Virus record (IMG/VR): IMGVR_UViG_3300036466_000415
Location: 1 to 31,238 of that record
DNA from: a virus
Length of the DNA: 31,238 bases
Direction: 5' to 3' (one strand)
The notes beneath the pieces were generated by a model. The model ran no database searches, was not told the origin of the DNA, and saw only the letters and a program-made list of their open reading frames with translations. Shown in pieces: positions 4,985-30,675 of the stretch (positions are counted from its first letter, which is position 1; each line of letters opens with the position of its first letter). The position numbers and the translations under genes are program-made.

Positions 4985-7912
4985 ATGGGTAGCTACGGGT
5001 TGAGATCGCTTACCGTTGACTTGGTTGCCAATACAGCGAGTTTTGAGGGGGGGCTCAGTAAAGCTGAGCGTGCCATCCGCAATACCGAGAACAGTCTGAC
5101 CAAAATGGTTGAGCGCATTGACCCGGTAACAACCAAGTTAAACAACCTTGATCAAGCCTACGCAAAACTTACTAAGGAGTTTGAAGCTGGGACGATAGAT
5201 AAAAGCAAGTTCGAGCTTTATTCAAAACAAGTTAAAGAGTTTCGACATCAAGTAGAGCGTTCGCAATACGACAAGCTGTTAAATCAGCTAGACCCTATTC
5301 GCACCAAGATCAGCGACATAGCCGATCAACAAAAACGCTTAAAGGCGGGTTTTGACAAAGGACTGATCAACGAGGCTGACTATACCCGTTACAATAAAAG
5401 CTTAGAGCAGATGCGCGTTCAGCTGACGGGTAATGAAAAAGCAATAAACGGCAACGCCCTGTCAGCTAAACAGATGCAGTGGGCTATGCGTGGATTGCCA
5501 GCGCAGTTTACCGATATATTTACCTCGCTGCAGGGCGGACAAAACCCGATGACGGTGTTCATCCAGCAGGGTGGTCAAATTAAAGATATGTTTGGCGGCG
5601 TCGGCCCAGCAGCAAAAGCGATGGGAGGGTATCTGGTTGGTTTAGTAAGCCCCTTAACCCTTGCAGCTGGAGCGGCGATTGTGGCTGGGCTGGCCTATTA
5701 CCAAGGTAGCAAAGAGGCTGATGAGTTTCGTAAAGCGATCATATTGACGGGTAACGCTGCCGGAACAAGCGTTAACCAGCTAACCGATGCGGCAGCACGC
5801 ATTGATCAATATGCAGGCACCCACAGGCAGGCAGCCAAAGCCTTATCGGTTGTCGCAAATACAGGGAAATTCACCGGGAAACAACTCGAGCTGGTTGCTG
5901 CGACAGCAGTAATGATGGAAAACACTGTCGGCAAGGCTATCGATGAAACCGTCAGCGAGTTCGAAAAACTAGCCAAGGATCCTGCTAAAGCTGTTGCTGA
6001 GCTCAATGAAAAGTATCACTTTCTCACTGCAGGCGTTTATGAGCAGATCAATGCGCTTGAAAAGGCTGGCAAACAGAATGAGGCGGCAAAGTTAGCTACC
6101 GAAGCTTACGCTGACGCAATGCAAGAGCGCACCCAGCAGTTAACTGAAAATCTAGGCTATGTCGAGCGAGCATGGAAATCGGTAAAACATGCAGCTGTAG
6201 AGGGGTGGGATGCCACTTTAGGTGTTGGGCGACCGGAAACCATCACCGATCAAATTGCCAAAGCTAAAGCGGAGCTAGCTGGGTTAACAGGTTCAACCCA
6301 GTTGAAAGTGAACATTTTAGCCAACACCACCGGACTTAATACGGGCGCAATACCTGAGGCTTACAAGCCAAACCCTGACGCCGCGAATAAGCAGGCAAAA
6401 CTACTAGAGAAACAGATTGCTGATTTAGAGCTAATGCAGCAAGTGCTTAATGATACAGCCGAAGAGGAATCCCTACGCGCCAAGAACATTGCCAAATCTA
6501 TTGCTGGACAACAAAAGTTCAATGATATTCTTGAGGCTACTCTCACCAAAGAAGAAAAGCGAGTCAAAGCGCAACAGGATCTGCAACGTCACATTAGCAA
6601 TATCCGCGCCGCCGACCCCAGCAGCGCCTTAATCAATGACGCCAATATAGCTAAGGCTCAAAAATGGATTGACGATCAATATAAAGAAAAAGATAAGGCC
6701 GAGTCTGACGTAGGCCAAAAGCTGTTACGCCGCTACCAGCAGCAAGAGGCTCAGTTGCGTCAGCAACTTGAAAGCAGCGAAAAACTGAGTAAGCAGTCGC
6801 AAAATTTACTGGGGTTAGAGCAGCAAATTGCCGACCTTAAAAACAAAAAAGTGCTAACTGCTGATGAGAAAAGCCTGCTGGATTATGCTGAAAAAAATAA
6901 GGCTCAACTAGAAATAAATGCAGCGTTAGAGCAAGAGTTAACCAAGCGCGAGCAGATCCGCCGCGAAATGGCATTTCAGCAAAACCTAAGCAGTGAAACT
7001 GCCGCTATTCAACAGCAATACGCCGACGAACTTGGCGCATTTGGCAAAGGCGACCGCACCAACAAACGTCTTATTGGCCGCAACGCCATTACCCGCAGCA
7101 TTCAGGGTAAAAAAGACGACTTAACCAACCAGCTTACAGAGGGGGTAATTGGTGAAGATGAGTACAACACCAATATGCAAACCCTTGAATCTGAGCTGTC
7201 AACTCGCCTGCAAATGTATGAAAAGCATTATCAGGATATAGATGAGGCTCGTGCCAATTGGCAAAATGGTGCGAGCCGCGCGTTTGACAACTATATCGAT
7301 AGCGCCAATGATGTCGCCGCGCAGACTGAAAACCTGTTTAACAACGCCTTTGGCAGCATGGAAGACGCGATCGTGCAGTTTGCCCTCACTGGAAAAGCCT
7401 CCTTTGCCGATTTTGCTAGGGCGATTTTAGCCGATCTGGCTCGCATAATGGTTAAACAGGCTTTGGTTAAGGTGATTGGGGCTGTATTCGGCGGATATTC
7501 TGATGGTGGCGTGGTCGGTGGCTTTGGAGGCTATGACAGCGGCGGCTACACAGGCCCTGGCGGCAAGTATCAGCCCGCAGGTATCGTACACAAGGGTGAG
7601 GTGGTCTTTAGTCAAGAGGATGTAGCCCGTAACGGCGGTGTCGCCAGTGTTGAGCGCATTCGAAAGGGCTTCAAGGGATTCTCTGATGGTGGCGTGGTCG
7701 GCGGTAATTATGCTGCTTCAGCTATGCCAGCGTCAGGCGGTGTGAATATCACCCAGCACATCAGTGTTGATAGTGGTGGCGAGCAAAATATGAATGACCG
7801 CAATAAAATAGGCAAGGCGTACGCTAAAGCGGCGGATCAAGGTACCCGAATGGAAATTGCCAAGCAACTTAAGCCAGGTGGCCTCATCTGGGCTGCGATG
7901 AGGGGATATTAA
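4985..7912 (+). CDS. Tail length tape measure protein (lambda H-like)
   Basis: A 975-residue protein, the longest in the tail module except J. The N-terminal 160 residues are helical and charged, followed by MTVFIQQGGQIKDMFGG, a stretch common in lambda-like tape measures. A hydrophobic segment lies around residues 210-240 (LVGLVSPLTLAAGAAIVAGLAYY). Long coiled-coil-like Gln/Glu/Lys-rich parts fill the middle. Near the C-terminus is the Gly-rich SDGGVVGG...GGYTGPGG with HKGEVVFSQEDVARNGG, and SDGGVVGG occurs again. It sets tail length and helps DNA entry. Its stop overlaps the start of M by one base. Confidence 0.9.
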   Translation: MGSYGLRSLTVDLVANTASFEGGLSKAERAIRNTENSLTKMVERIDPVTTKLNNLDQAYAKLTKEFEAGTIDKSKFELYSKQVKEFRHQVERSQYDKLLNQLDPIRTKISDIADQQKRLKAGFDKGLINEADYTRYNKSLEQMRVQLTGNEKAINGNALSAKQMQWAMRGLPAQFTDIFTSLQGGQNPMTVFIQQGGQIKDMFGGVGPAAKAMGGYLVGLVSPLTLAAGAAIVAGLAYYQGSKEADEFRKAIILTGNAAGTSVNQLTDAAARIDQYAGTHRQAAKALSVVANTGKFTGKQLELVAATAVMMENTVGKAIDETVSEFEKLAKDPAKAVAELNEKYHFLTAGVYEQINALEKAGKQNEAAKLATEAYADAMQERTQQLTENLGYVERAWKSVKHAAVEGWDATLGVGRPETITDQIAKAKAELAGLTGSTQLKVNILANTTGLNTGAIPEAYKPNPDAANKQAKLLEKQIADLELMQQVLNDTAEEESLRAKNIAKSIAGQQKFNDILEATLTKEEKRVKAQQDLQRHISNIRAADPSSALINDANIAKAQKWIDDQYKEKDKAESDVGQKLLRRYQQQEAQLRQQLESSEKLSKQSQNLLGLEQQIADLKNKKVLTADEKSLLDYAEKNKAQLEINAALEQELTKREQIRREMAFQQNLSSETAAIQQQYADELGAFGKGDRTNKRLIGRNAITRSIQGKKDDLTNQLTEGVIGEDEYNTNMQTLESELSTRLQMYEKHYQDIDEARANWQNGASRAFDNYIDSANDVAAQTENLFNNAFGSMEDAIVQFALTGKASFADFARAILADLARIMVKQALVKVIGAVFGGYSDGGVVGGFGGYDSGGYTGPGGKYQPAGIVHKGEVVFSQEDVARNGGVASVERIRKGFKGFSDGGVVGGNYAASAMPASGGVNITQHISVDSGGEQNMNDRNKIGKAYAKAADQGTRMEIAKQLKPGGLIWAAMRGY

Positions 7913-8250
7913 TGCCATTGCAGCAATTTATTTGGGTCCCAACCGGCGAGGCGTCAGGCGATAAGTCGTTTAGTGTTCGCAAGGCTGAATTTGGTGACGG
8001 TTACAGCCAAGCGGTTGCCGATGGTTTAAATAACGAAAAGCAAAGCTGGCCACTCACTTTCACGGTAAAAAAGTCGGAGGCGGAGCTGATCCGCGACTTC
8101 TTCGACCAACATAAAGGTAGTCAATCATTTGCGTGGACTCCACCGCTAGGCACCTTGTCACTATGGACAGTGGAAAAATATGCCATCACGCCACTCGGCG
8201 CCAATATCTACCGTATCAATGCCACATTTGAACAGGCCTATCATCCTTAG
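7912..8250 (+). CDS. Minor tail protein M-like
   Basis: A 112-residue protein that matches lambda M in size and position, directly after the tape measure. It opens MPLQQFIWVPTGEASGDKSFSV and carries KAEFGDGYSQAVADGLNNEKQSW, the typical 'FGDGY.Q' motif, and ends FAWTPP...ATFEQAYHP. M takes part in building the tail tip. TAATG at 7910-7914 couples it to the tape measure gene. In lambda the next gene is L, but here a 3.2-kb retroelement cassette lies between. Confidence 0.85.
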   Translation: MPLQQFIWVPTGEASGDKSFSVRKAEFGDGYSQAVADGLNNEKQSWPLTFTVKKSEAELIRDFFDQHKGSQSFAWTPPLGTLSLWTVEKYAITPLGANIYRINATFEQAYHP

Positions 8251-8282: not shown

Positions 8283-9443
8283 ATGACAGTAGAACAAATT
8301 AACTTAGGCACCTCACCAACAGGCGGTGACGGCGATACCGCGCGCCAAGCATTCGAGAAGGTCAATAATAACTTTACTGCCGCCGAAAACGCCGCCAGTC
8401 GATTGGTCGGCGTGGATAGTCCTGAAAAACTGGTCGATAAGGCAGGATTTGAGATCCTAATCAAGGACCGACTAAGGCAAGAGGTTGAGTTTATATCCGG
8501 TGGTAAAAATACGGTGATTTATGACGCCCAAGGCAATCCAAACGTCATGGTTGTCATACCTAGATTTAATTATGAAGATCTGGGATTGCCAGATTTACAG
8601 CTTGGAACTGGTACTCCTACAGCATTTTTAACTAACGGTGCTCCACGTGGCGAAATAATGATTGCCAAATATCTGGCTAGCGCAGGAGGCTCTACATGCT
8701 CAGTTATCGGCGGTGTGCAGCCGCAGGTATACGTTAACTATGACCAAGCAAAGGCTAAATGCACTGACAAAGGCGCTGGCTGGCATTTAATGTCACATCA
8801 TGAGTGGGCCGCTATTTCACTGCTGGCATTTGGCAATGGAACTGTGCCCCGTGGAAACACTTATCATGGACGCGCGCACGATAGGCCAATAGAAACAGCG
8901 ATACGTGAAGATGATGGAGCTCCAGGCGACGCATCCGGAACAGGAAGCACGGACACAGGTAGTGGCCCAGCGACTTGGTCTCATGACCATACTGATTTTG
9001 GTGTGTGCGATTTAGTTGGTAATGTCTGGGAATGGCAAGATCAAATGAAGCTCGTTGATGGTCAGATAGTCACAACGCTAGATAACGCACCAGAACAGCT
9101 AGAATCAAGCTGGATTTCTCAGCAGGCATACTACAACGCATCTGGAGGCTTGAAACTAGACTCATCAGTAACAGTGTCTGGCTCCGTTAACGTTGAATTC
9201 AGGCAGCTTGGCAAGTCAGCGTCATATGTTCCAAATGAGCTTATGCGCCGCATTATGCTCGAGACAGCATCACCTAACACGTTAAATGGCAGGATTTACG
9301 CTGACAATCGCGGGGAAAGACTACCGATCCGCGGAGGCAGCTGGAACAACGGCTCGAGCGCCGGGCTTTCGGCTCTCATCCTCAGTTTCTCGCGTTCGTA
9401 CTCGAGCAGCACGATCGGTTTCCGTCCAGCTTATTTTTCATAA
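8283..9443 (+). CDS. DGR target: variable tail protein with FGE/C-type-lectin-like C-terminal domain
   Basis: A 386-residue protein. Residues 1-45 (MTVEQINLGTSPTGGDGDTA, then QAFEKVNNNFTAAE) are a tail fibre attachment sequence common in phages. From about residue 110 the protein looks like the formylglycine-generating-enzyme type of C-type lectin fold: GWHLMSHHEWAA, then DFGVCDLVGNVWEW, and a C-terminal LPIRGGSWNNGSSAG...IGFRPAYFS. The last 37 residues are the VR. Asn codons of the template are changed here at residues 353, 359, 366, 368, 369, 373, 375 and 377 (now S, S, I, S, F, Y, S, T). The conserved core W354, N355, N356, G379, F380, R381 and P382 is kept. It should display a variable receptor-binding surface at the tail tip. 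Confidence 0.92.
   Translation: MTVEQINLGTSPTGGDGDTARQAFEKVNNNFTAAENAASRLVGVDSPEKLVDKAGFEILIKDRLRQEVEFISGGKNTVIYDAQGNPNVMVVIPRFNYEDLGLPDLQLGTGTPTAFLTNGAPRGEIMIAKYLASAGGSTCSVIGGVQPQVYVNYDQAKAKCTDKGAGWHLMSHHEWAAISLLAFGNGTVPRGNTYHGRAHDRPIETAIREDDGAPGDASGTGSTDTGSGPATWSHDHTDFGVCDLVGNVWEWQDQMKLVDGQIVTTLDNAPEQLESSWISQQAYYNASGGLKLDSSVTVSGSVNVEFRQLGKSASYVPNELMRRIMLETASPNTLNGRIYADNRGERLPIRGGSWNNGSSAGLSALILSFSRSYSSSTIGFRPAYFS
9323..9431 (+). repeat. DGR variable repeat (VR)
   Basis: This 109-bp stretch aligns without gaps to 9904-10012. Ten positions differ. Nine are adenines in the template: G at 9340, 9358, 9385 and 9406, T at 9379, 9387, 9388 and 9399, C at 9412. The tenth is C to G at 9413. This adenine bias is the signature of mutagenic retrohoming. 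The last 18 bp (9414-9431) are identical in both and are the likely initiation-of-homing segment. Confidence 0.95.
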
Positions 9444-9462
9444 AGTTTACTGTGTTTTGTTG

Positions 9463-9480
9463 GTGGCGCGATAGCGCCAC
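9463..9480. other. DGR hairpin/cruciform downstream of VR
   Basis: GTGGCGC (9463-9469), a GATA tetraloop and GCGCCAC (9474-9480) form a perfect seven-pair GC-rich hairpin 31 bp after the end of VR. No T-run follows, so it is not a standard terminator. Size, loop and position match the target-DNA hairpin that raises homing efficiency in the Bordetella phage DGR. Confidence 0.8.
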
Positions 9481-9530
9481 GTGAAGCAAGAAAATTTAAT
9501 CCGTATACTTTTAATTAACAGGAGTTTGAG

Positions 9531-9893
9531 TTGTCAGCATTGATAATAGAAGAGAAGTGCAGAGAGATGATTTTGTTTGGCTATGCTGCAATAAAGCAGT
9601 TCCCCAAGCACGAAACTCACGTTCTTGGCGCAGAAATCAGGCTGTCAATGCTGCAAATGCAGCGCTTAATCATCACCGCGATGAAGCGCTACCACAAAAA
9701 GACCACGCTAACCGATCTCGACATTGAGATTGCGATACTAAAGCGTAGGGTAAGGCTGGCTAAAGATCTGCGGTACGTTGACATAAAACGATATCAAAGA
9801 TGGATAGTTCAAATTGTCGAAATAGGTAAAATGCTAGGAGGCTGGATAAAGTCTCTTGGTTTTCAAGACCGTCAACAGGTTGGCGCATTATGA
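9531..9893 (+). CDS. avd: DGR accessory variability determinant (Avd)
   Basis: A 120-residue basic, all-helical protein. The segment YHKKTTLTDLDIEIAILKRR, followed by VRLAKDLRYVDIKRYQRWIV and EIGKMLGGWIK, is the hallmark of the Avd four-helix-bundle family. In Bordetella phage this protein forms a pentamer, binds the RT and the template RNA, and is required for cDNA synthesis. The start is TTG at 9531, with CAGGAG at 9519-9524; no in-frame ATG gives a full-length protein. Its TGA stop (9891-9893) overlaps the ATG of the RT by 4 bp. Confidence 0.93.
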   Translation: MSALIIEEKCREMILFGYAAIKQFPKHETHVLGAEIRLSMLQMQRLIITAMKRYHKKTTLTDLDIEIAILKRRVRLAKDLRYVDIKRYQRWIVQIVEIGKMLGGWIKSLGFQDRQQVGAL

Positions 9894-11161
9894 ATACACC
9901 GGAACCGATCCGCGGAGGCAACTGGAACAACGGCTCGAACGCCGGGCTTTCGGCTCTCAACCTCAATAACTCGCGTTCGAACTCGAACAGCAACATCGGT
10001 TTCCGTCCAGCTCTTGATCACGCCAGAAGCAATAACCCTAATGGGTGTTGCCAGTGCAATAATGAAAAGGATGCGCCAACCTCGGCTATTGCCGAAACAC
10101 TCACCAAGCCTTTCGACGCGTCGAAAGGCTGCTTATTTGAGGGTATATACGCCTTTGAAAATATCCTTGCCGCAGCATATCAGTGCAGAAAAGGAAAGGC
10201 TAAATCAAATAGCACGCTAAGGTTTTTTAACGAGCTGGAGGAGAACGTCATCCAACTGCAAAATGAGTTGATGTGGGGCATGTATCAGTCATCTGCATAT
10301 CATCATTTTTACGTATTTGAGCCAAAAAGGAGGTTGATCTCCGCTCCAAACTTCAGGGATAGAGTTGTTCACAGAGCTATTTATAACATTATTGAACCAC
10401 TATTTGACAAAACATACTGCCACGACTCGTATGCTTGTAGGCACAATAAAGGGACGCATAAAGGAGCTGATAGGGCACAGCTTTTTATCAAGCGCGTGGA
10501 GCAAAAGTATGGCAAAGCTTATGCGCTTAAAGCGGATATTAGTCGTTACTTCTCAAGCATAGACCATCACATATTAAAGTCGATAATCGCTCAAAAGATA
10601 AAATGTGAACGAAGCAAGTCTCTGCTGTTTTACGTTATAGATTCAAGCCCTAGCGATGAATTTGCGGTTGGGATACCGCTTGGTAATTTAACCAGCCAGA
10701 TATTCGCCAACCTATATTTAAATGAGCTCGACAGATTTGTTAAGCACCACCTCAAAGCTAAAAACTACGTAAGGTACATGGACGACTTTGTGATTATTCA
10801 TCACGAAAAAATTCAGCTTCACGAATGGCGCAGGCAGATAGAGCTGTACCTTAATCAAAATCTAAGGTTAAAAACTAACGCCAAGACGCAGGTGTTTCCC
10901 ATTTCGCGCAACAATGGCAGAGGGCTTGATTTTCTCGGGTATAGGATCTACTCGGATCATAGGCTGTTAAGAAAATGCAGCGTGAAAAGGATAAAGTCCA
11001 AGCTTAAAAAATTTCATTTAGATTACGGCAATGGCGAGATCAACATAAGCGATATAAATCAATCAATACAATCTTGGATTGGGCACGCAAAGCATGCTAA
11101 TGCGCATGGGTTAATGACAAAGCTATTTAGTCAAGCTTTTACGAGGAACGATAATGTTTAG
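9890..11161 (+). CDS. DGR reverse transcriptase with TR-encoded N-terminus
   Basis: A 423-residue protein. The conserved RT starts near residue 82 (LFEGIYAFENILAAAYQCRK) and includes FYVFEPKRRLISAPNFRDRV, SYACRHNKGTHKG, the first catalytic Asp in LKADISRYFSSID (D216), the DGR-type GIPLGNLTSQ (261-270) and the catalytic YMDD at 296-299. It copies TR RNA with errors at adenines. The frame starts at ATG 9890, overlapping the avd stop. I find no in-frame ATG, GTG or TTG after it until about 10264, inside the conserved RT domain, so the TR must be translated unless a rare codon is used. A small phage gene overlaps its end by 8 bp. Confidence 0.93.
   Translation: MNTPEPIRGGNWNNGSNAGLSALNLNNSRSNSNSNIGFRPALDHARSNNPNGCCQCNNEKDAPTSAIAETLTKPFDASKGCLFEGIYAFENILAAAYQCRKGKAKSNSTLRFFNELEENVIQLQNELMWGMYQSSAYHHFYVFEPKRRLISAPNFRDRVVHRAIYNIIEPLFDKTYCHDSYACRHNKGTHKGADRAQLFIKRVEQKYGKAYALKADISRYFSSIDHHILKSIIAQKIKCERSKSLLFYVIDSSPSDEFAVGIPLGNLTSQIFANLYLNELDRFVKHHLKAKNYVRYMDDFVIIHHEKIQLHEWRRQIELYLNQNLRLKTNAKTQVFPISRNNGRGLDFLGYRIYSDHRLLRKCSVKRIKSKLKKFHLDYGNGEINISDINQSIQSWIGHAKHANAHGLMTKLFSQAFTRNDNV
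9904..10012 (+). repeat. DGR template repeat (TR)
   Basis: The template partner of VR, 581 bp downstream of it. It holds about 26 adenines, with ten Asn codons (nine AAC, one AAT) whose first two adenines can be mutated without creating stop codons. Eight of those codons differ in VR. It lies entirely inside the RT reading frame, in the same frame as VR, so it encodes residues 6-41 of the RT as an Asn-rich copy of the target's C-terminus. Confidence 0.95.
10107..10130. repeat. 24-nt perfect palindrome in the TR-RT spacer
   Basis: AGCCTTTCGACG is followed directly by its exact reverse complement, 94 bp after TR and just before the conserved RT domain. RNA from either strand would form a strong hairpin. 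A smaller hairpin, CGGC-TATT-GCCG, lies at 10083-10094. It also encodes RT residues 73-80. It may be part of the structured spacer RNA that DGR RTs need downstream of TR; that function is inferred. Confidence 0.8.
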
Positions 11162-11444
11162 TTACATATATAAGTCGCAGCGCCACAGCGATACTGATTT
11201 AAATTACATGAAAAACCTAGGTATGGATGAGGAGCAAATTAATTCAGTGCTTTCTCAGCGTCAATACGAGGCTGTTGACGGGGCTGTAGCAAAAAGAAAA
11301 GAGGCTTATTTAACTGAGTCAGACCCGTTATTTATAGAAGCTTCATTTGATAATGACGAAGCAAAAGTGCAAGCGTGGAGAGATAAGGTTATTGAGATAA
11401 AGGCCAGGTATCCTATCAACCATGAATTTATGGTTAATAAATAA
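11154..11444 (+). CDS. Small tail-fibre-associated protein
   Basis: A 96-residue protein. It has a helical N-terminal half (GMDEEQINSVLSQRQYEAVD) and a C-terminal ESDPLFIEASFDNDEAKVQA, then WRDKVIEIKARYP. The 'SDPLF...W..K..EIKARYP' pattern is common in short proteins encoded after phage tail fibre genes, some of them fibre chaperones. It overlaps the RT end by 8 bp, and its TAA shares a base with the ATG of L. Its location suggests it serves the variable tail protein rather than the retroelement chemistry. Confidence 0.6.
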   Translation: MFSYIYKSQRHSDTDLNYMKNLGMDEEQINSVLSQRQYEAVDGAVAKRKEAYLTESDPLFIEASFDNDEAKVQAWRDKVIEIKARYPINHEFMVNK

Positions 11445-12184
11445 TGCTCACTCATGACATACAAATCCTAGAGCCTGGCAGCGAAATTATTCTGTTCGAG
11501 GTCGACGGCAGTGACTTTGGCGCCGATATTATGCGTTTTCATGCCCATAATATCCCGCATGCGGCGGATGAAATTGCCGAGGCTGTCGCGCAGCAGTTAG
11601 ATCTACCAGCAAAGTCTATCTGGTGGCAGGGCGAAGAATACTCACCATGGCCAGTTAAAATTGAGGATGTAGAGATCAACTCAGATGGCTCACCATCTAG
11701 TCCAAAGCTCACAGTAGCTAACTTGGAAGGTACTATATCTGCGTTGTGTTTAATCTACCAAAACATGGAAAATGCCAGGGTAACTATTCATCGCACCTTA
11801 GCCAAGTATCTCGATGCGGCTAACTTTAGCGATGGCAATGCTGATGCAGATCCAACCCAAGAGAATATCGATATCTGGTTAATTGACCAAAAGACCACCG
11901 AGAATAACCAGATAATTCAGTTTCAGCTGTCTAATCCTGCGGCAGTAGGTAACTATAAAATAGGCCGCAAGATGACACCTTATTGTTTTTGGTGTCAGCG
12001 TGGTCGATATCGGGGCCCTGATTGTGGTTACACTGGGGGTGCCATGTTTGATATAGACGATAACCCCACAACAGACCCGGCCGCAGATCAATGCAGCGGC
12101 ACCATTGCTGGCTGCAAAAAGCGCTTTGGCGAAGACGCCGAACTACCTTATGGTGGCTTTGCCGCCGTGCGCATGATCAAATAG
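11444..12184 (+). CDS. Minor tail protein L-like (Cys-rich tail tip protein)
   Basis: A 246-residue protein resembling lambda L. The N-terminal part is a beta-rich tail tip domain, and the C-terminal 70 residues hold five Cys (181, 184, 194, 217, 224) in YCFWCQRGRYRGPDCGYTGG and DQCSGTIAGCKKRFG. In lambda the equivalent Cys bind an iron-sulfur cluster. The end, ELPYGGFAAVRMIK, is also typical. ATG 11444 overlaps the preceding stop. It is followed by K, I and J, which restores the lambda order after the DGR. Confidence 0.87.
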   Translation: MLTHDIQILEPGSEIILFEVDGSDFGADIMRFHAHNIPHAADEIAEAVAQQLDLPAKSIWWQGEEYSPWPVKIEDVEINSDGSPSSPKLTVANLEGTISALCLIYQNMENARVTIHRTLAKYLDAANFSDGNADADPTQENIDIWLIDQKTTENNQIIQFQLSNPAAVGNYKIGRKMTPYCFWCQRGRYRGPDCGYTGGAMFDIDDNPTTDPAADQCSGTIAGCKKRFGEDAELPYGGFAAVRMIK

Positions 12185-12963: not shown

Positions 12964-13560
12964 ATGCAACCAGAAACCCAGCAGAAAACCGTGATTAAGC
13001 TGTCAGGCTCACTTGCCGCCAAATTTGGCCGTTGCCATGTGCGTTACCTCGAATCTGGTAAAACATGGGAGGCGTTCTCGGCACTTAAACATACCCTGCA
13101 AGGCTTCGAGCAGTTTGTACTCGAGCAGGCTAAGCTGGGGATGCGTTACGCCATCTTTCGTAATGGCGAGAACGTGATCGAAGATGAGTTTGATTTTGAG
13201 GGCACGCGCGAGATCCGTATCGTACCAGTAATGGAAGGCCGTAAGCGTGGCGGGATACTGCAAACCATAGTGGGCGCGGTGTTAGTGGTGGTTGGGGCCG
13301 TGTTATCCGCTTATGGGTTTGGCGCTATTGGCGCTCCAATGATGCAGGCTGGTATCGGCATTATGGCAGGGGGGATATTGCAAATGCTTTCGCCGCAAAA
13401 TCTCGCCAATTCATCCAATGAAGACTCAGCCACCAGTTACGCCTTTGGTGGTGCAGTAAATACCAGTGCGCAAGGCAACCCTGTTGGTATTGGCTACGGT
13501 GAACGTTTAGTCGGTGGAGCCATTATCAGTGCTGGTATTTACGCAGAGGATCAACGTTAA
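12964..13560 (+). CDS. Tail assembly protein I-like
   Basis: A 198-residue protein in the lambda I slot. It begins MQPETQQKTVIKLSGSLAAK, continues with FGRCHVRYLESGKTWEAFSA and FEIR-type ubiquitin-like fold signs (REIRIVPVMEGRKRGGILQ), and has a Gly/Ala-rich hydrophobic segment at about 105-145 (GAVLVVVGAVLSAYGFGAIG). It ends with YGERLVGGAIISAGIYAEDQ, as in other I proteins. ATG 12964 has GAAGGA upstream; the TTG at 12946 lies within the terminator region and is less likely. TAATG couples it to J. Confidence 0.85.
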   Translation: MQPETQQKTVIKLSGSLAAKFGRCHVRYLESGKTWEAFSALKHTLQGFEQFVLEQAKLGMRYAIFRNGENVIEDEFDFEGTREIRIVPVMEGRKRGGILQTIVGAVLVVVGAVLSAYGFGAIGAPMMQAGIGIMAGGILQMLSPQNLANSSNEDSATSYAFGGAVNTSAQGNPVGIGYGERLVGGAIISAGIYAEDQR

Positions 13561-16500
13561 TGGGTATGGTTGCACCAATCACAGGCCGAAAAAGCGGCGA
13601 TGAAGGTCACACGCCTGTTGAATCACCTAATGATCTGCTTTCAACTAGCCATGCCAAGATATTGCTAGCGCTGGGTGAAGGGGAGTGGGAAGGCAGCATT
13701 GATGGCAGTATGATATACCTAAATAGCACGCCATTAATCGATAGCAATGGCAATGAAAACTTCCCGGGCACAAAGTGGGACTTTCGCCCAGGTAGTGTGC
13801 AGCAAACGTATATCAAAGGCATTCCAAGTGTAGAGAATGAACTCACCATTAACACGGAGCTGAAATCCGACAACAGTTGGGTGAGATGGCTAACCAACAG
13901 CATGCTCTCTGCTATACGCTTGCGCCTCCGCTGGCCAGCACTGCAGCAACAAAAAGAAAATGGCGATGTAGTTGGTTACAGCATCGATTATTCGGTTGAA
14001 ATTGCAACCGATGGCGGCAGCTACAAAAGTGTGCTAACAACATCAGTAACAGGCAAAACCAACACCTCTTATGAACGTAGCCATAGAATAGACTTGCCGA
14101 CAGGCAGCAGCTGGCAAATTAGAGTTCGCCGCAGCACGCCAAATCAAAATAAAAATACGGTGAGCGATGCCATGTTTATCTCTGCGATCACTGAGGTAGT
14201 TGACGCAAAGTTTAGCTATCCGAATACCGCGCTGCTATATGTCGAGTTTGACGCCAGCCAGTTTAATAATATTCCCAGCGTTGCAGTTAAAGCCAAAATG
14301 CGTAAAGTGCGCGTGCCGACTAACTATGATCCTATTTCGCGAACTTATGCCGGCATGTGGGACGGCAGCTTTAAAATTGCGTGGACCAATAACCCAGCTT
14401 GGATATCCTACGACCTAATATTAGATGATCGCTTTGGGACCGGTCAGCGAATTACCGCCAATCTAGTCGATAAATGGGAGCTCTACTTAATTGCGCAATA
14501 CTGTGATGAGCTGGTGCCAAATGGTAAAGGTGACATGGAGCCTCGCTATACCTGTGATATTTATATCCAAGAGGCTAAAGAAGCATGGCAGGTGCTGCGT
14601 GACTTGGCTGCTATTTATCGCGGCATGACCTATTGGGCAAACGGCCAAATGTATACCGTGGCAGATATGCCGCGAGATATGGACTTCCTCTATACTAATG
14701 CCAACGTTATCGCCGGTGAATTCAGCTACACTGGCACCAGCGTGCGCTCAAAATTCACTCGAGCCCTTGTGAGTTGGGACAACCCAGACAATGAATACAA
14801 CACAGATGTCACATCTACTGGTGATGTGGCGCTGCAGCGCCGCTACGGCGACAATCCAATTGAGTTAAGCGCAATAGGCTGTACCCGCGAATCAGAAGCG
14901 CAGCGGCGTGGCAAGTGGGCGATTTACACTAACAACAATAATCGCATGGTGTCGTTTTCAGTTGGACTAGATGGTCAAATCCCTTTACCTGGCGCGATTA
15001 TCGGAGTTGCCGACAAACTTATTGCCGGCAAGCGAATAGGCGGTCGTATTTCTGCTGTTGACGGGGTAAGCATTACATTAGATAAGGCGCCTGATACTGC
15101 TGTAAATGACAGGTTGATCGTCAATCTACCATCAGGCAAAGCTGAGGCGCGCACCATCACTGCAGTTGATGGCAACGTTATTACAGTATCAACCGAATAC
15201 AGCGAAACACCAGCCTCACAACTACAGTGGGCGATAGAAAGCGCTTCACTAGCGCCACAGTTATTTAGGGTGATGGCAGTAAGTAAGGCGGACTCTGATG
15301 AGATTGAGTATCAGATCAGCGGCATCGAGTACAACCCAGGTAAATTCCCAGCGATTGATAACGGCTCGCAGTTATTAGAAAGGCCAATTTCCACGCTGCC
15401 ACCAAAAACGCAGCTACCACCCGCAGAGGTAACCATAGCTCAGCGCACTTACATTGAGCAGGCTCAGTCAGTCACGGTAATGATTATCGAGTGGCCCAAG
15501 GCGGCAAATGCGATTGGATATGATGTTGAATGGCGTAAAGATAGCGGCGAATGGGTAACCGTTCCGCGCACTGGCGCGACTAGCGTCGAGATTATTGGCG
15601 TGTATACCGGCAACTATTTAGCGCGTGTCCGTGCGGTAAATTCTGTTAACGTGGCATCCATTCCTAGAGAATCAATATTAACGGCGATCACAGGCAAGCA
15701 AGGCCAGCTAGAAACGGTTAACTCGCTGACCACGGCATCGAAAGTGTTCGGCATTCAAATTGACTGGACCTTCCCGCCGGCGAGCGGTGACACGCTAAAC
15801 ACCGAAATCCGTTACTCGCTAAACGCCAACGGTAGCAATCCGGTGATCCTCGGGCAGTTTGCTTACCCACTTAACACTCATACCATGGCTGGCCTGGCCG
15901 CCGGTGCCGCTTACTTTTTCTCTGCAAGGCTGGTTGATAAATCAGGAAATGTAAGCGAGTGGTCAGAATGGGTATTAGGCCAATCGTCATCAAATGCGGA
16001 TGAAATCCTTGGATACCTCACAAATCAAATCAGTGAATCACAACTCGCGCAAGAACTGCTTGATCCAATCCAGCAAATACCAAGCATTAAATTAAATGCA
16101 GATAAGGTAAATCCGCTGCAGGCACAGGTTGATCAAGTTCAGAGCCAACTTGCAGAAATTGTAGGGGCCGGAGATTGGGATCCAGAAACTGCCTATAATA
16201 TTGATGATCTGGTTAAGTATAATGGAGCTCTATATCGCGCTAAAGTTAACGTCCCAGCCGGAACAGTACCAACAAACACTAGTTACTGGGATAAAGTTGG
16301 CGACTACTCGTCACTTGGTGAGTTCGTTACAGCCATTTCAATAAGAGTTGATGACGTTGAAACATCAATTGACGATATCACTGGAGAGCTAACCAATCAG
16401 GCGCAATCGATAGATGGCATATATGCTCAAGTCAATCCACCAATGGCTGGTGATGTAGACTGGAATGCCGGTAATAACATTGTATTAGCCGGAGTCTGGT

Positions 16501-17690
16501 CTGAGCGATATGCTAGAGCGATTAACGACGAGGCGTTAAGTAAGCGAATAGATGTTGTCTTAGCGAGTGTTAATGGCAACGCAGCATCAATTCAGCAAGA
16601 GTCTATTGCTCGTGTAAATGCTGATGAGGCGTTGGCGCAAGACATTACCACTCTTAGTGCGTCTATGAGTTCGAACGCAGCTGCAATTCAGCAAGAGTCT
16701 ATTGCTCGCGCAAATGCCGATAGCGCCTTATCGCAGCAGATCACTACGGTTCAAGCAAAAGCTAACGACAACTATTCTGCTGTTCAGCAAACATCACAAG
16801 CGCTAGCTAATTTAGATGGCGAGTTGCAGGCGATGTGGAAAGTTAGCCTCGGTGTTACCCAAGACGGCAAATATTACGCCGCAGGGTTTGGTATTAGTTA
16901 TGAAAATGGTAACCAAGGCTTACAGTCTAATTTTTATGTGTTAGCAGATCGCTTTGCAATTCTCAATAAGGCGACGGGGTCCACAACTATTACCACTCCA
17001 TTTGTTGTTGAAAATGGGCAGGTATTTATGAACTCGGCATTCATCGGTGAATTACAGAATAAAACCGTCATTCAAAGAGTTGGTGGCTCGCTACAGGTTT
17101 TCGGTGTCGGATTCGGCAATAATAATCAATTTATGGAATGGTATGGGCCAGACGTTGGCGATATAAGTAACTGCACAGAGGCGAACGCGACAACATATAG
17201 AAAAATAGATGGCAGCGCATACTACGGCGGAGCATTAAGCGCTGGGATATTGAAGACTGGGGTAACAAACCCTGATAAGAACTTTTATATTGTTAACAGC
17301 TACCCTGTTGAAATTGGGCCGTACAGTCACAACGGGAACCCAAAAAATATTGTGGTTTCATTTACACTTAGCGCGTCATACAGCAGCACTAGTCAGGTGT
17401 CCAACCCAACCCAGCCATCGCTTGGTTGGCGCCTTGAAAGGCGCATCGGTAACGGAGTGTGGGCGACTGTGAGTAGTGGCACTTTTCATGGTATTACAAC
17501 TGTATCTTACAACGCAGAGTTAAGGCGCTATACTACCGAAGAGTGGTGTGGGTCTTCATCAACATTTATAGATAATTATAGTGGCGATGATGATCTTTCA
17601 TACAGAGTGAAAGTACTAAGTTTTAGCAGATATCATTCTGTTTCTAATGTTTCGTCACAACGATTATCTCTAGTATCAACAGAAGAGTAG
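13560..17690 (+). CDS. Tail tip host specificity protein J-like
   Basis: A 1376-residue protein, near the size of lambda J. The N-terminal half is the conserved hub (LLSTSHAKILLALGEGEWEG, TYWANGQMYTVADMPRDMDF). A fibronectin-like segment lies at about 620-705. At about 870-912, WDPETAYNIDDLVKYNGALY and a Trp-ending turn look like a chitin-binding-type module. Coiled repeats follow (AASIQQESIARVNAD twice, near 1010 and 1042), then the J-type DGELQAMWKVSLGVTQDGKY and a unique C-terminus from about 1220, the usual receptor-binding part. It should contact the host receptor together with the DGR protein. After it the late operon ends. Confidence 0.9.
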   Translation: MGMVAPITGRKSGDEGHTPVESPNDLLSTSHAKILLALGEGEWEGSIDGSMIYLNSTPLIDSNGNENFPGTKWDFRPGSVQQTYIKGIPSVENELTINTELKSDNSWVRWLTNSMLSAIRLRLRWPALQQQKENGDVVGYSIDYSVEIATDGGSYKSVLTTSVTGKTNTSYERSHRIDLPTGSSWQIRVRRSTPNQNKNTVSDAMFISAITEVVDAKFSYPNTALLYVEFDASQFNNIPSVAVKAKMRKVRVPTNYDPISRTYAGMWDGSFKIAWTNNPAWISYDLILDDRFGTGQRITANLVDKWELYLIAQYCDELVPNGKGDMEPRYTCDIYIQEAKEAWQVLRDLAAIYRGMTYWANGQMYTVADMPRDMDFLYTNANVIAGEFSYTGTSVRSKFTRALVSWDNPDNEYNTDVTSTGDVALQRRYGDNPIELSAIGCTRESEAQRRGKWAIYTNNNNRMVSFSVGLDGQIPLPGAIIGVADKLIAGKRIGGRISAVDGVSITLDKAPDTAVNDRLIVNLPSGKAEARTITAVDGNVITVSTEYSETPASQLQWAIESASLAPQLFRVMAVSKADSDEIEYQISGIEYNPGKFPAIDNGSQLLERPISTLPPKTQLPPAEVTIAQRTYIEQAQSVTVMIIEWPKAANAIGYDVEWRKDSGEWVTVPRTGATSVEIIGVYTGNYLARVRAVNSVNVASIPRESILTAITGKQGQLETVNSLTTASKVFGIQIDWTFPPASGDTLNTEIRYSLNANGSNPVILGQFAYPLNTHTMAGLAAGAAYFFSARLVDKSGNVSEWSEWVLGQSSSNADEILGYLTNQISESQLAQELLDPIQQIPSIKLNADKVNPLQAQVDQVQSQLAEIVGAGDWDPETAYNIDDLVKYNGALYRAKVNVPAGTVPTNTSYWDKVGDYSSLGEFVTAISIRVDDVETSIDDITGELTNQAQSIDGIYAQVNPPMAGDVDWNAGNNIVLAGVWSERYARAINDEALSKRIDVVLASVNGNAASIQQESIARVNADEALAQDITTLSASMSSNAAAIQQESIARANADSALSQQITTVQAKANDNYSAVQQTSQALANLDGELQAMWKVSLGVTQDGKYYAAGFGISYENGNQGLQSNFYVLADRFAILNKATGSTTITTPFVVENGQVFMNSAFIGELQNKTVIQRVGGSLQVFGVGFGNNNQFMEWYGPDVGDISNCTEANATTYRKIDGSAYYGGALSAGILKTGVTNPDKNFYIVNSYPVEIGPYSHNGNPKNIVVSFTLSASYSSTSQVSNPTQPSLGWRLERRIGNGVWATVSSGTFHGITTVSYNAELRRYTTEEWCGSSSTFIDNYSGDDDLSYRVKVLSFSRYHSVSNVSSQRLSLVSTEE
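16589..16708 (+). repeat. Direct repeat within J
   Basis: The same 24 bases occur at 16589-16612 and 16685-16708, 96 bp apart, and surrounding bases are also similar. They encode two copies of a heptad-rich QQESIAR segment, part of a coiled-coil stalk. Confidence 0.75.
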
Positions 17691-18167: not shown

Positions 18168-19460
18168 TTACTGGTTCCCGTTTTTGTTTCTGGGCAAAAT
18201 CTGGGCAAAATCTGCGTTTTCCTGTCCGCTTATGTCCGCATTAAATCCCATCATTTCAGATATACGGCTTGCCATTCTTTGCGAGTCTTTAGGTATCCAC
18301 TTGCCATAGTGCTTCTTGATCATGGTGGTGTCACTGTGACCAAGTTGGCGCGCTACCCATTCAAGCGGCACGTAGTTTGAAAGTAACTGACTGGCGAAAG
18401 TATGGCGGCATTGGTTGGGCCCACGGTGGCGTAATTTGGCGCGCTTAAGAAGCCCTGTGAACCAACGTCGAACTGAATGATCATACCAAGGCTCTCCGCT
18501 TTTCCCATTCAGAAAAACCAAACGGATGCTTTCTTTTCTGCTGGTAATATTGTCTCTTTGCTGCACTGTGTATTCAACTTGCTGGCGCATTATAGAGTAT
18601 TGCATTTGACGCTTTAGCCACACTTTTGCAGGCTCTAGCAATTCAATTACCCGTATGCGTCCGCGCTCCTTAGGTACTTTGTATTGGTTTAACACCTTGG
18701 CGCGCTGCACTTTTATGGTCCACGTTTCGGTATCGATATCCTCCCATGCCAGCGCGATGATCTCTGACAGTGACAATCCAGACCAACACCAAAACATGAT
18801 CATGTTGATATCACCTTGGCGGATCGTGTTGATGTTTTCAATTCTTAATAGTTCGTCGCGGGTAAATGGATCGGCTGTTTCCTCTAAGTTATCGCGCTCA
18901 ATATTCCTTACTCGGTCAAGTGGGTTAACTTTTATAGAGCCTTCGTGGAATGCCTCAGACCATACGCCGCGCACAATGGTAAAAATATCATTGACGGTTT
19001 TCGGTGATAACCCACCGCGTAGGAGTTCTGCTTGGAATAGCTCAAGCTCTGGCTTACTTATGTCGGCGAGTTTGCGTGTTCCCAATTTGCCGATCACATG
19101 CTTCGCTTTGACTTTATAATTTTTAAAGGTGCTTTTCGCTTTGGTCACCTCCTGTACCGATAACCATTGGTTCACCGCGTCAGCTACAGTCAACTTAGTT
19201 TTGATCATCCCAGCTAAATTTGCGGCTTTCGCCGAACAGGGGAAGTGGGCTAGGTAGTCAAAACGATTTTCAGCTATTTCGGTTAAGATGGTATTGCGCT
19301 TATTTTCTGCGTACTTTATGACTGACTTGGTGATTTTTGAATAGCCAGTTAATGGTTCTCTGCAGCGCTGGCCGTTCAGCATAAATACAATACGAACCGT
19401 GTTGTAATTGATTTCGACGCCCACAGGGAGTTTTTCAACTCCCTTTGGTAAAGTGCTCAT
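18168..19460 (-). CDS. int: Tyrosine site-specific integrase
   Basis: A 430-residue protein with an N-terminal arm-binding part (1-75), a core-binding SAM-like domain (about 90-180) and a catalytic domain (about 195-395). The catalytic R352 in CRHTFASQLL, H375 in RQLGHSDTTM and nucleophile Tyr385 in HYGKWI are present. Two positions are unusual: the first catalytic Arg (usually GLR.SE) is Ser230 in SGLSLSEIIALAWEDID, and the His three residues before R352 is Asn349. It lies next to a tRNA-like core and starts at TAATG inside the excisionase stop, with AAGGAG upstream. It catalyses phage integration and, with Xis, excision. Confidence 0.9.
   Translation of the reverse strand: MSTLPKGVEKLPVGVEINYNTVRIVFMLNGQRCREPLTGYSKITKSVIKYAENKRNTILTEIAENRFDYLAHFPCSAKAANLAGMIKTKLTVADAVNQWLSVQEVTKAKSTFKNYKVKAKHVIGKLGTRKLADISKPELELFQAELLRGGLSPKTVNDIFTIVRGVWSEAFHEGSIKVNPLDRVRNIERDNLEETADPFTRDELLRIENINTIRQGDINMIMFWCWSGLSLSEIIALAWEDIDTETWTIKVQRAKVLNQYKVPKERGRIRVIELLEPAKVWLKRQMQYSIMRQQVEYTVQQRDNITSRKESIRLVFLNGKSGEPWYDHSVRRWFTGLLKRAKLRHRGPNQCRHTFASQLLSNYVPLEWVARQLGHSDTTMIKKHYGKWIPKDSQRMASRISEMMGFNADISGQENADFAQILPRNKNGNQ
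18189..18239. repeat. Right repeat module of the attachment region
   Basis: Two copies of TCTGGGCAAAA (18189-18210) and a GTCCGC pair at 18224 and 18234. They overlap codons for the last residues of the integrase (DISGQENADFAQILPR). It is the partner of the module at 18004-18054. Confidence 0.6.
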
Positions 19461-19669
19461 TATGCTGCTCCTTCCATCCAGCGCTCTATCTCATTGACGT
19501 TGTAAACGACGCGATTAACTGGGTCATAGCGCCATTGACGACCTTCTAACCATACGCCACGTTCGCGGTATTTGCGCGCGGCCTCGGATGTTATACCAAA
19601 GACGTTAGGCAGTAAATTTCCGCGCACCCACTTGGCTGGGCTAGTTTCAACGCTTTGTTTTGCCATCAT
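19460..19669 (-). CDS. xis: Excisionase-like DNA-binding protein
   Basis: A 69-residue protein resembling the DUF1233-type excisionases. The signature is WVRGNLLPNVFGITSEAARK, then YRERGVWLEGRQWRYDP, VVYNVNEIERWMEG: a winged-helix with an aromatic-rich wing. Such proteins bend the attachment DNA and direct integrase to excision. It overlaps the gene before and the integrase after by one to four bases, so Xis and Int are made from the same early transcript. The paired 10-bp-spaced repeats in the attachment region are possible binding sites. Confidence 0.85.
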   Translation of the reverse strand: MMAKQSVETSPAKWVRGNLLPNVFGITSEAARKYRERGVWLEGRQWRYDPVNRVVYNVNEIERWMEGAA

Positions 19670-20073
19670 TCATCAACCTTATCTAACGAGTATTCATTTG
19701 CAAACGTAGCGGCGTACTCCTCTAGTTCATCTTGATTGTTGGTCCATTGCCCGTTGTCGCAATCAACTGAACAACGCTCATAACCTGTTATGAATCCATC
19801 AAAATACGCTTGCTGAATTGTTTTGCTTTTTGACTTAATATCTATTGGCGATGGTTTAGGTGGGTAACCATGCTTTATCCACGCCTGCACTTCTTGAAAG
19901 TTATACTTGTTTCTAAAGTGCGGGTTTGATGTTGGCTTGGGGAAGTCATCAAGCTTTATCAACTGATAAAGCTTTGTTGTGCCTACGCCTAATGCTCTAG
20001 CCAGTTGAGCAGGTGAATAGAACACCTGATTAACTTTAGGCTGTTTCATCGCCTCGATTTCTTGTTGAAACAT
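19666..20073 (-). CDS. HTH (AlpA/MerR-like) protein of unknown role
   Basis: A 135-residue protein. Residues about 12-60 (VFYSPAQLARALGVGTTKLY, QLIKLDDFPKPTS, FQEVQAWI) form an AlpA/MerR-type helix-turn-helix. The rest (QAYFDGFITGYERCSVDCDNGQW) has no clear family. An earlier in-frame ATG at 20091 overlaps the preceding stop, but the ATG at 20073 has a perfect GGAGG six bases upstream and is my choice. It precedes xis, so it may be a regulator of the excision module; that is inference. Confidence 0.65.
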   Translation of the reverse strand: MFQQEIEAMKQPKVNQVFYSPAQLARALGVGTTKLYQLIKLDDFPKPTSNPHFRNKYNFQEVQAWIKHGYPPKPSPIDIKSKSKTIQQAYFDGFITGYERCSVDCDNGQWTNNQDELEEYAATFANEYSLDKVDE

Positions 20074-20087
20074 CTTTGCCTCCATCC

Positions 20088-20588
20088 TCACTCATTAACC
20101 AGTTCAATTACACCGCCTGAAACGATGGCGCCAGTCACTTGATTGTCACCGTACATCACTCTATGGCCTTGGTTTTCGCATGCCTGGATGGCATCGCGCA
20201 GGTCTTCGAGTTCGTTGCCGCTAGATAGGCGTAAATCCCATATTTTTTGATTAAAATCATCGTGCTCAGTATTGGCAGGATCATAAGGGTTTCTTACTCG
20301 CAGCAGATGCTTAAACATTAACTCTGCCAAGTCCTCAGCGGTGTCGTATTGGAATATAAAGTTATCTTCCGAGTACGTGTGTTTAGAGCCTTGACGAACT
20401 ACGGTTCTCAAATTTAAAGCTTCACGGTCAACTTGCATCGCATTTACTTGGTCTTTCAATCGTTGGATTTCGGTACCTAGCTTTTGTTTTGCCTCTGTCA
20501 GTTCTGATGCTGGAACGTAAACCCCAAGGCCTTCTACGTTAATTTGGCTTGAGCCGTTGCCGTCTAAAAACACTCTGCGTTTAGTCAT
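20088..20588 (-). CDS. Hypothetical phage protein with short coiled coil
   Basis: A 166-residue acidic protein. Residues about 28-60 (ELTEAKQKLGTEIQRLKDQV) form a short coiled coil. Two other segments, SEDNFIFQYDTAEDLAELMF and YDPANTEHDDFNQKIWDLRL, show no family I know. The start overlaps the end of the ASCH-like gene by four bases (ATGA) with GAGGTGG upstream. It belongs to the early leftward operon between the ASCH-like and HTH genes. Confidence 0.7.
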   Translation of the reverse strand: MTKRRVFLDGNGSSQINVEGLGVYVPASELTEAKQKLGTEIQRLKDQVNAMQVDREALNLRTVVRQGSKHTYSEDNFIFQYDTAEDLAELMFKHLLRVRNPYDPANTEHDDFNQKIWDLRLSSGNELEDLRDAIQACENQGHRVMYGDNQVTGAIVSGGVIELVNE

Positions 20589-21130
20589 GCTGCCACCTCG
20601 CTGGTGCTAACGACTTTGAACTCTATAACCCATACCCATGGATTAGATGACCAAGAATCATCACCGTAAATAGATGTCCACACATCACTGAATTCGCCAT
20701 ATCCAGACTTACCGCCTGTTACGTCATCGTCATAACCTTCGCACCCTTCTGCCCACGCATCTTGCTCGCTAATATCCTGTAGGCGCTCAATGCGAAAACC
20801 AGTGATCTCAATTGTCGCGCAGTGATTGTCATTAGTAGCCAGTAGCCGATCGCCAATGCCGCCGTATAGCTTGCCAAGCGGAACAACTCCTTCTTCTGGA
20901 TATTCGGTGCAGTACGTAAGCCATTCTGGGCCCCAAACAGTGCCGTCGTCACTTTCCCATTCGCCATATCTAATCCCAACAAATTCAAACTCGCCAGTTT
21001 CCTCATCGCTACCACCCATAAACTCTATGTGTGAAACCAGCTCAGGTTTTACAGGTCTGCGGGTCTGGGTTTTGCTGCCATCTATAACCGCAGCCATCAT
21101 CTCTTCGTTGAACCGAATTTTATCTTTCAT
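20585..21130 (-). CDS. Phage ASCH-like protein
   Basis: A 181-residue protein starting MKDKIRFNEEMMAAVIDGSK, followed by TQTRRPVKPEL. That beginning, an early hydrophobic strand with GDRLLATNDNHCATIEITGF and RIERLQDISEQDAWAEG, and the end WVWVIEFKVV, is the pattern of phage ASCH-domain proteins, which may bind RNA or modified nucleotides. ATG 21130 is chosen because an ideal AGGAGG lies eight bases upstream; an upstream frame extension overlaps the methyltransferase gene. The function in phage is not known. Confidence 0.75.
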   Translation of the reverse strand: MKDKIRFNEEMMAAVIDGSKTQTRRPVKPELVSHIEFMGGSDEETGEFEFVGIRYGEWESDDGTVWGPEWLTYCTEYPEEGVVPLGKLYGGIGDRLLATNDNHCATIEITGFRIERLQDISEQDAWAEGCEGYDDDVTGGKSGYGEFSDVWTSIYGDDSWSSNPWVWVIEFKVVSTSEVAA

Positions 21131-21138
21131 AAATCCTC

Positions 21139-22686
21139 CTATGCTGCAGCTGCGGTTTGTGTGCAAAGCTCTGGCAGGTTTGCGCGGGTGAGTGCTTCGG
21201 CAAATTGCGGCGGTACGCTGTTGCCAACACGGGCGACTTGCTGCTTTTTGGTCGATTTACCGTTGTAGTTGTTGATGATGTAATCAGCGGTGAAACCTTG
21301 GCAGGCGAATAGCTCATGGGGTTCGAGCATGCGCATACCGATATCGATGATTTGATAGGGTTCGCCCTTGATCATCACTAGGCCAAAGCGGTCATTGGTG
21401 GTGATGGTGTGCAGTGGTTCGTTACAGGCCACGCCGTCTTGCTCGTTGCCGTAGTATTTGATGAAGAACGCGCGCACTTCGCCAAGGTGTAAGCCGCCAG
21501 CGGTAATAGTGTGTGCTGGTTCGTCCATTGGAAAGCCTAGGTTATCGCCCCGCAACTTAATCATGTGGCTGGTGATCAGTGAGTTGTGATCCACTGTTGT
21601 TACTGTCGGCAAAGGGTTGTTTAGATCATCACCTGGTCCAGTGTAGTTACCACCGTAATGCTTACAGATATTGGCAGCAGCGAGCACAGGTTGCACTACG
21701 GCAAAATGACCGCCTTTGACTGCAGCGCAGATGGTTCGCAGTGGTTCGTTAACTGCCATATTGCGTTGATTGCTGGCGTTAGCGTGCTCGGTAATAAAGG
21801 GCGCTAGCGTGACGTTTTGCGGCACAATAAACGGCTCTTTGGCATCAACCACAAAGCGCTGAATGCCTTTAGCAATACGGCGCATGGTGTTTTCAGCCAG
21901 CGGCCTTTTGCGACCAAAGATTGATTTGCATGGCAGTGACCAGTCTATGCATTCAGCAGCTGTTCGCCACGGTAGCAGCTTGCCAGATATCACCGCTTCG
22001 CTATCTGGTGCACCGTGAGTTGGCTCAGGCCAAACGATGGGTTGACCATCGCAACGGGCGATCATGAATAGACGCTTACGGATTGTTGGGGCGCCATAGT
22101 CACAGGCTCGTAGCTCGCGCCACTCGACCTTATAACCCAGCCCTTTAATCAATTTGGCAGCATCGAGCAAACCTAAGGTTTCAACACATTCGGCTAATGC
22201 AGGGTGATCTGCATCAATGCCAGTGCTTAACATGCTAACAAAGGCGTTAAAGGTTTCGCCTTTGCGGTCTTTGCATGGGTGCATTGCATCCGATTCAGGG
22301 CATTGAATTAACGGCCCCCACGTTTTAAATTCTTCGACGTTTTCGAGCATCATCACCCTAGGGCGTACCGTCATCGCCCAGCGAACGGTTACCCACGCTA
22401 AGCCGCGGATCTCTTTATTGACTGGTTTGCTGCCTTTCGCTTTTGAGAAGTGCTTGCAGTCGGGTGAGAACCACGCCAAATCAACGGGTTTACCTGCCGT
22501 CGCTTGCACTGGGTCGATATCAAATACCGACTCGCAATAGTGCAGGGTGCTAGGATGGTTTGCAGTGTGCATAGCAATAGCGTCAGGGTCGTGGTTGATA
22601 GCGATATCAACGCTGCGACCAATAGCCCAGCCCATACCAGTGGAAGCACCACCACCGCCAGCGAAGTTATCTGCAAAAATGCCCAT
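21139..22686 (-). CDS. C5-cytosine DNA methyltransferase
   Basis: A 515-residue enzyme that should add methyl groups to C5 of cytosine using S-adenosylmethionine. Motif I is DNFAGGGGASTGMGW (residues 6-20). The catalytic Cys is C77 in WFSPDCKHFSKAKG, a phage-type version of motif IV. E115-N116-V117 is motif VI. TIRKRLFMIAR (about 202-212) is motif VIII, and VGNSVPPQFAEAL near the C-terminus is motif X. The target recognition part is residues about 215-480, with several 'PL.TI' repeats (EPLRTICAA, EPAHTITAG, EPLHTITTN). There is no restriction endonuclease next to it, so it probably protects phage DNA from host restriction. Confidence 0.92.
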   Translation of the reverse strand: MGIFADNFAGGGGASTGMGWAIGRSVDIAINHDPDAIAMHTANHPSTLHYCESVFDIDPVQATAGKPVDLAWFSPDCKHFSKAKGSKPVNKEIRGLAWVTVRWAMTVRPRVMMLENVEEFKTWGPLIQCPESDAMHPCKDRKGETFNAFVSMLSTGIDADHPALAECVETLGLLDAAKLIKGLGYKVEWRELRACDYGAPTIRKRLFMIARCDGQPIVWPEPTHGAPDSEAVISGKLLPWRTAAECIDWSLPCKSIFGRKRPLAENTMRRIAKGIQRFVVDAKEPFIVPQNVTLAPFITEHANASNQRNMAVNEPLRTICAAVKGGHFAVVQPVLAAANICKHYGGNYTGPGDDLNNPLPTVTTVDHNSLITSHMIKLRGDNLGFPMDEPAHTITAGGLHLGEVRAFFIKYYGNEQDGVACNEPLHTITTNDRFGLVMIKGEPYQIIDIGMRMLEPHELFACQGFTADYIINNYNGKSTKKQQVARVGNSVPPQFAEALTRANLPELCTQTAAAA

Positions 22687-24689: not shown

Positions 24690-24745
24690 TGGCTTTCACT
24701 CTGTTGTTTTTAATTGTCACTTAACTGATAACTGGCGGCGTGTTT

Positions 24746-25895: not shown

Positions 25896-25904
25896 GATCG
25901 CCTC

Positions 25905-26111: not shown

Positions 26112-26210
26112 GTCAGCCTCCATATCTTGTTGAAAAGTCTTGTTGAAAAGGTTTCAAAGAATTTTGCTAGCATCTCGAGTAGCAGATCGATGGCGTCACT
26201 CGCTTGCGTA

Positions 26211-30668: not shown

Positions 30669-30675
30669 ACAATGA

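Follow-up and report, generated by a model that had tools for sequence, protein, structure and literature searches.

What kind of element lies between the M-like and L-like minor tail genes of this lambda-like phage, is it still at work, and what does its placement mean for the tail that carries it? Our analysis covers the whole 31,238-base viral record (hereafter, the window). We give a probability of roughly 0.9 to the reading that the element is an intact diversity-generating retroelement (DGR) of the type known from the phages VHML, VP58.5 and ACA, that it sits in a fibre slot between M and L of a temperate lambda-like phage, and that it diversifies a receptor-binding protein.

Cassette and tail operon

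A complete DGR occupies positions 8283-11161 of the window on the plus strand, with a target that carries a C-type-lectin domain, a variable repeat (VR), a hairpin with a GATA loop, avd, a template repeat (TR) and a DGR-type reverse transcriptase (RT). The tail operon around it has the lambda-like gene order H, M, L, K, I, J, with a Pfam and a PHROG match for each gene. Upstream lies a lambda M-like minor tail gene (7912-8250; PF05939, E 1.3e-31; phrog_14) and downstream a lambda L-like one (11444-12184; PF05100, E 5.9e-71), followed by K, I and J. The original prediction of a DGR with all its parts, inserted between M and L and with gene order resuming after it, is thus borne out, with two corrections. 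The parts follow the predicted order overall, except that TR, instead of separating avd from RT, is part of the RT reading frame (9890-11161); and the product is indeed a variable protein, but not the neighbour of J that had been proposed, since L, K and I intervene. That reading also missed the arrangement of TR within the RT gene, a structured RNA and a partner ORF (11154-11444, 96 aa; phrog_5714), which is part of the module and extends it beyond 11161 to 11444.

The target gene (8283-9443) encodes 386 residues, comprising an N-terminal fibre adaptor (coding sequence 8283-8425) and an FGE-sulfatase-type lectin domain (PF03781), and belongs to phrog_2889 (E 1e-127). The 109-nt VR (9323-9431) ends 12 nt short of the final base of the target and is followed by the hairpin (9463-9480) and by avd (accessory variability determinant, 9531-9893), which has a TTG start with AGGAG upstream and matches bAvd (PF22296, E 1.6e-29) and phrog_3206, Avd of DGR. 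The RT matches PF00078, phrog_1423 over residues 2-419 (E 1.6e-166) and, by profile, the Bordetella DGR RT structure 8ub7 (E 7.8e-61); its catalytic YMDD lies at 10775-10786, and the LGxxxSQ motif is present as LGNLTSQ.

Homologues of the partner ORF follow RT in the close clade and come straight after the target in contigs without avd and RT (L004, L171, L173, L180 and others), which assigns the ORF to the target rather than to the retroelement. ACA1 has a homologue, gp45. No Pfam family fits the protein, and its model, of predicted helical fold, gave no match at E <= 0.001 in a fold search; going by its neighbourhood in these sequences, our guess is that it helps in fibre assembly. Relatives with target and partner and without RT (L003, L171, L173, L180, L182, L188, L189, L191-L193 and L203) mostly lack the hairpin too, and they suggest that the retroelement half was lost or gained more than once.

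Elsewhere in the window, a minus-strand arm at 18168-30875 encodes an integrase, an S24 repressor and, by prediction, three DNA methyltransferases (cytosine-5, 21139-22686; Dam-type, 23526-24689; and a third at 27269-28129); the phage is thus temperate. A pRha-type regulatory gene (1880-2707) is embedded in the plus-strand structural operon but encoded on the minus strand, and the J protein (13560-17690) has a weak match, just under the cut-off, to a CBM_5_12 chitin-binding module at residues 873-910.

VR, TR and the RNA elements of the cassette

VR and TR (9904-10012) align without gaps over 109 positions at 91% identity, and 9 of the 10 mismatches fall on the 26 adenines of TR (hypergeometric p = 6.2e-6). 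The sole other difference, C to G at 9413, lies just upstream of the terminal 18 nt of VR (9414-9431), which are identical to TR and form an IMH-like end; comparison of the VR and TR ends gave no clear IMH/IMH* difference. No further TR-like copy or second target was found in the 31,238-base record. Of the 13 codons that can change in TR, ten are AAY and none can yield a stop, which allows about 3.7e13 possible proteins.

The same adenine-biased pattern recurs in about 75 related loci. Between cassettes of 93-99% identity, differences usually affect 40-80% of the VR positions that are adenine in TR, compared with 0-3 of about 80-92 other positions, and the M–L cassettes L038, L043 and L079, compared pairwise, differ at 12-14 of 25 TR-adenine positions and at 0 of 81-82 others. 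The original prediction would have been undermined by relatives with the same target and an invariant VR and TR; the M–L relatives do vary, and only at TR-adenine positions. A few cassette pairs have identical VRs, for example L036 and L037, and these may be one phage sampled twice. ACA phages likewise differ mainly in VR (PMC10612066). The window phage is represented by a single VR sequence, and the retrohoming that we infer for it has indirect support from the divergence of near-identical relatives at TR-adenine positions of VR. In one related locus (L087, 7712-8937), a 669-nt repeat includes avd, and the stretch from VR to TR is apparently duplicated.

The hairpin begins 31 nt past VR and has a 7-bp GC-rich stem (arms 9463-9469 and 9474-9480) around a GATA loop that fits the GRNA consensus; the stretch has a folding z-score of -4.4. 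A hairpin with a 6-9-bp stem and a GATA, GGTA or GAAA loop lies 28-34 nt past VR in 35 of the 36 close-clade loci with a mapped VR, and is absent from 9 of the 11 target relatives that lack RT; the two that retain it include L003, which also has an avd remnant. Guo et al. 2011 described the same element in phage DGRs, including those of VHML and Shewanella sp. W3-18-1, with the GRNA loop consensus, and the hairpin is required for BPP-1 homing (PMC3240598).

The ATG of RT overlaps the avd stop codon (ATGA), and the RT frame traverses TR in the target's own frame, so that about 41 N-terminal residues of RT are encoded by the TR region. All 37 close-clade loci examined, including the window, have TR in the RT frame and the ATG overlapping the avd stop, and in the window and about a dozen other loci the start codon before TR is the only one found ahead of the RT domain; more distant relatives mostly have a stop codon between TR and RT. 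The arrangement is not new: TR as a translated N-terminal extension of RT has been published for ACA1 (PMC10612066).

A conserved structured RNA follows TR within the RT coding sequence (10011-10130), with hairpins at 10029-10051, 10083-10094 and 10108-10129. Its consensus, from 31 distinct sequences, has 34 pairs, 14 of which show changes on both sides. The cells of the alignment are paired in 97.1% of cases, compared with 88.9% in shuffles and with 27-49% in slid versions, over which the structure is favoured because it was derived from the same alignment; helices 5 and 7 have many double changes, and none of 500 shuffles equalled the RNA on any of five measures. The Rfam model RT-14 (RF02921) matches over its full length (1-144) from the last 2 nt of TR, at 37.0 bits, and hits L031 and L047 at the corresponding position. 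With 37-44.7 bits, the three matches stay below the gathering threshold of 48.1, and we therefore call the element RT-14-like only. A literature search for a paper on RT-14 found none. By position and homology, the RNA in the window would act as a spacer RNA like that of BPP-1, which lies 3' of TR, recruits RT-Avd and primes cDNA synthesis (PMC12875486). In the linker after TR, variation at third codon positions is 0.36, lower than the 0.57-0.58 of the RT domain, whereas amino acids vary more, a pattern that looks like constraint on RNA. We also considered a function for the TR-encoded N-terminus of RT as a peptide; the codon pattern of the linker points to the RNA instead.

Target protein and the M–L slot

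The closest solved structure to the target is that of TaqVP, the variable protein of a DGR in a Thermus aquaticus prophage (PDB 5vf4, PMC6328139). The target family profile matches it at E 1e-115, and the predicted model of the target (mean pLDDT 76) matches it in Foldseek at E 2.7e-32 with a TM score of about 0.75; the next Foldseek matches are weak, to Mtd. TaqVP lacks the adaptor region, and its profile match to the target starts only past the adaptor, which corresponds to about residues 1-48. The first 60 or so residues of the target are modelled at low confidence, with a pLDDT of 31-48 for the adaptor, so that docking through the adaptor has no structural support from the model.

The argument for docking comes from the company the adaptor keeps. 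It matches the proteins encoded between M and L in L092, L094, L095 and L097 at their N-termini only (63-66% identity over 41 residues), and it also occurs in the tail fibre encoded between M-like and L-like genes of the cultured Acinetobacter siphophage vB_AbaS_qsb1; it is common to tail fibres of Acinetobacter and Xanthomonas phages. Six contigs have proteins other than the target between M and L, namely the fibres of 850-920 aa in L092, L094, L095 and L097 and the proteins of L143 and L170, and all six start with an adaptor of the type INLG...GGDTAR.AF.KVN.NF. The fibres of vB_AbaS_qsb1 and of L092, L094, L095 and L097 share position and adaptor with the target but have other bodies and no DGR; no TR or RT match was found in the 46-kb record of L092. 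These adaptor-bearing fibres in relatives identify the M–L interval as a general fibre slot whose adaptor the DGR target uses. From the sequence and the model together, we infer that the target is a variable receptor-binding protein, with a lectin body for receptor binding and the adaptor as its docking site.

In most relatives the slot is nearly empty: the gap between the M and L matches is 5-20 nt in about 70 of the 77 relatives by L with M in the same contig. The full arrangement of M, cassette and L occurs in the window, L043 and L079, and part of it in L038, L096 and L197. Its placement had been put forward as worth describing, and the literature searched, most subscription journals excepted, describes no DGR in this interval. 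The claim to novelty is narrowed by the recurrence of the placement in at least three other contigs, or five if partial ones are included, by the generality of the slot and by a cassette family already known from VHML, VP58.5 and ACA. The element belongs to a known DGR type, and the lambda-like tail slot is its new context. The K–I interval holds about 2.6-3.5 kb of extra DNA in L043, L079, L092 and L057/L091, which is absent in the window, L094 and L097, and is possibly a second insertion slot; in L038, the minus strand of this interval (5677-5742) resembles the antisense sar RNA of phage P22 at a score below threshold.

How firmly does this exclude a cassette that only resembles a working one? 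A decayed or silent DGR would still have readable parts, with a target no longer mutated and VR a frozen relic, and loss is common in the family: many relatives keep target and partner without avd and RT, L003 has its remnant of avd, and the RT of prophage proACA1-A is frameshifted (PMC10612066). In the window, however, no ORF is interrupted, TR, the covarying RNA and the motifs of RT are all preserved, as is the hairpin, which most RT-less relatives have lost, and nine of the ten differences lie at adenines; we regard decay as very unlikely and this complete DGR as probably working. A second account takes VR and TR as an ordinary gene-fragment duplicate that diverged neutrally, and two direct 109-nt copies do present a superficially similar picture. 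We rejected it, leaving it a negligible probability, because the differences lie on the adenines of one copy only (p = 6e-6), an asymmetry repeated in about 75 loci; moreover, avd, RT and hairpin adjoin the repeats.

The remaining doubt concerns the target itself, which might be a moron, for example a lectin made from the tail operon but secreted or placed on a surface, rather than a receptor-binding protein of the tail. TaqVP-like proteins can be single-domain monomers (PMC6328139), and position in an operon is by itself no proof of incorporation into the virion. A free lectin is nevertheless highly improbable given an adaptor that M–L fibres of other phages share, as do tail fibres of Acinetobacter and Xanthomonas phages, and that is replaced by a different fibre N-terminus where the cassette follows J.

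For an intact DGR that diversifies a tail receptor, we propose the following working. Target, avd, TR and RT would share one transcript. The RT-Avd complex would bind the folded RNA just 3' of TR and copy TR, misreading adenines. With the GRNA-loop hairpin and the identical IMH-like end as guides, the cDNA would then take the place of VR at the target's 3' end. Retrohoming would thereby alter the lectin binding surface at up to 13 codons, for about 4e13 possible proteins, while the N-terminal adaptor would join the protein to the tail, perhaps with help from the 96-aa partner.

Exchange between tail types

The DGRs of VHML and VP58.5 (Vibrio) and of ACA1 and ACA2 (Pseudoalteromonas; PMC10612066) have the order target, avd, TR/RT and partner, as in the window, with RTs 50-73% and targets 53-58% identical to those of the window; in VP58.5 and ACA1, too, TR is translated as the RT N-terminus. 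Unlike the window phage, these phages have contractile tails, the cassette follows a P2-like tail-fibre gene, and the targets have a coiled-coil-like N-terminus in place of the M–L adaptor. Bordetella phage BPP-1 (mtd, avd, TR, brt) shares the parts, their order, the adenine-specific VR/TR differences and the GRNA-loop hairpin, and its RT is homologous (37% identity). Its TR, in contrast, lies between avd and brt and not in the RT ORF, and Mtd, whose N-terminal domains are different, matches the target structure only weakly.

The cassette is not tied to one tail type. Contig 3300031260_000127 (loci L057 and L091) is a close relative of the window phage by its tail genes (M 68%, L 78% and J 67% identity), yet its M–L gap is 8 nt and its cassette follows J. 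The target there has a different N-terminus, of a kind seen in other tail fibres, and the cassette shares about 90-95% identity with its counterparts in the VHML-like contigs L001 and L040-L042. The cassettes of L041, with contractile-tail genes downstream, and L078, with J upstream, are 95.7% identical. On these comparisons the module moves between siphophage-like and myophage-like contigs with a change of adaptor, and cassettes so nearly identical in both point to recent transfer. In the RT tree, the after-J cassettes lie among the VP58.5-like ones (support 100/99) and the M–L cassettes elsewhere, with Shewanella and other elements; the M–L cassettes may derive from one or more acquisitions, the tree being compatible with both.

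With TR and the spacer RNA in the RT frame, the question arises how a single RNA can be both translated and reverse transcribed. We speculate, while considering it unlikely, that the RNA must act either as RT message or as template and that RT-Avd, by binding its own message, would block translation, a self-limiting switch from enzyme production to target mutation; together with the adaptor swaps, this would make the clade a self-regulated, plug-in mutagenic receptor module of contractile and non-contractile phages. More generally, one mutagenic receptor module has entered at least three tail contexts (between M and L of lambda-like tails, after J of lambda-like tails, and in contractile tails), the lectin body being kept and only the N-terminal docking part changed. 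The M–L interval appears to be a swappable slot where a self-mutating receptor competes with fixed ones, so that the costs and benefits of a DGR could be compared between close relatives.
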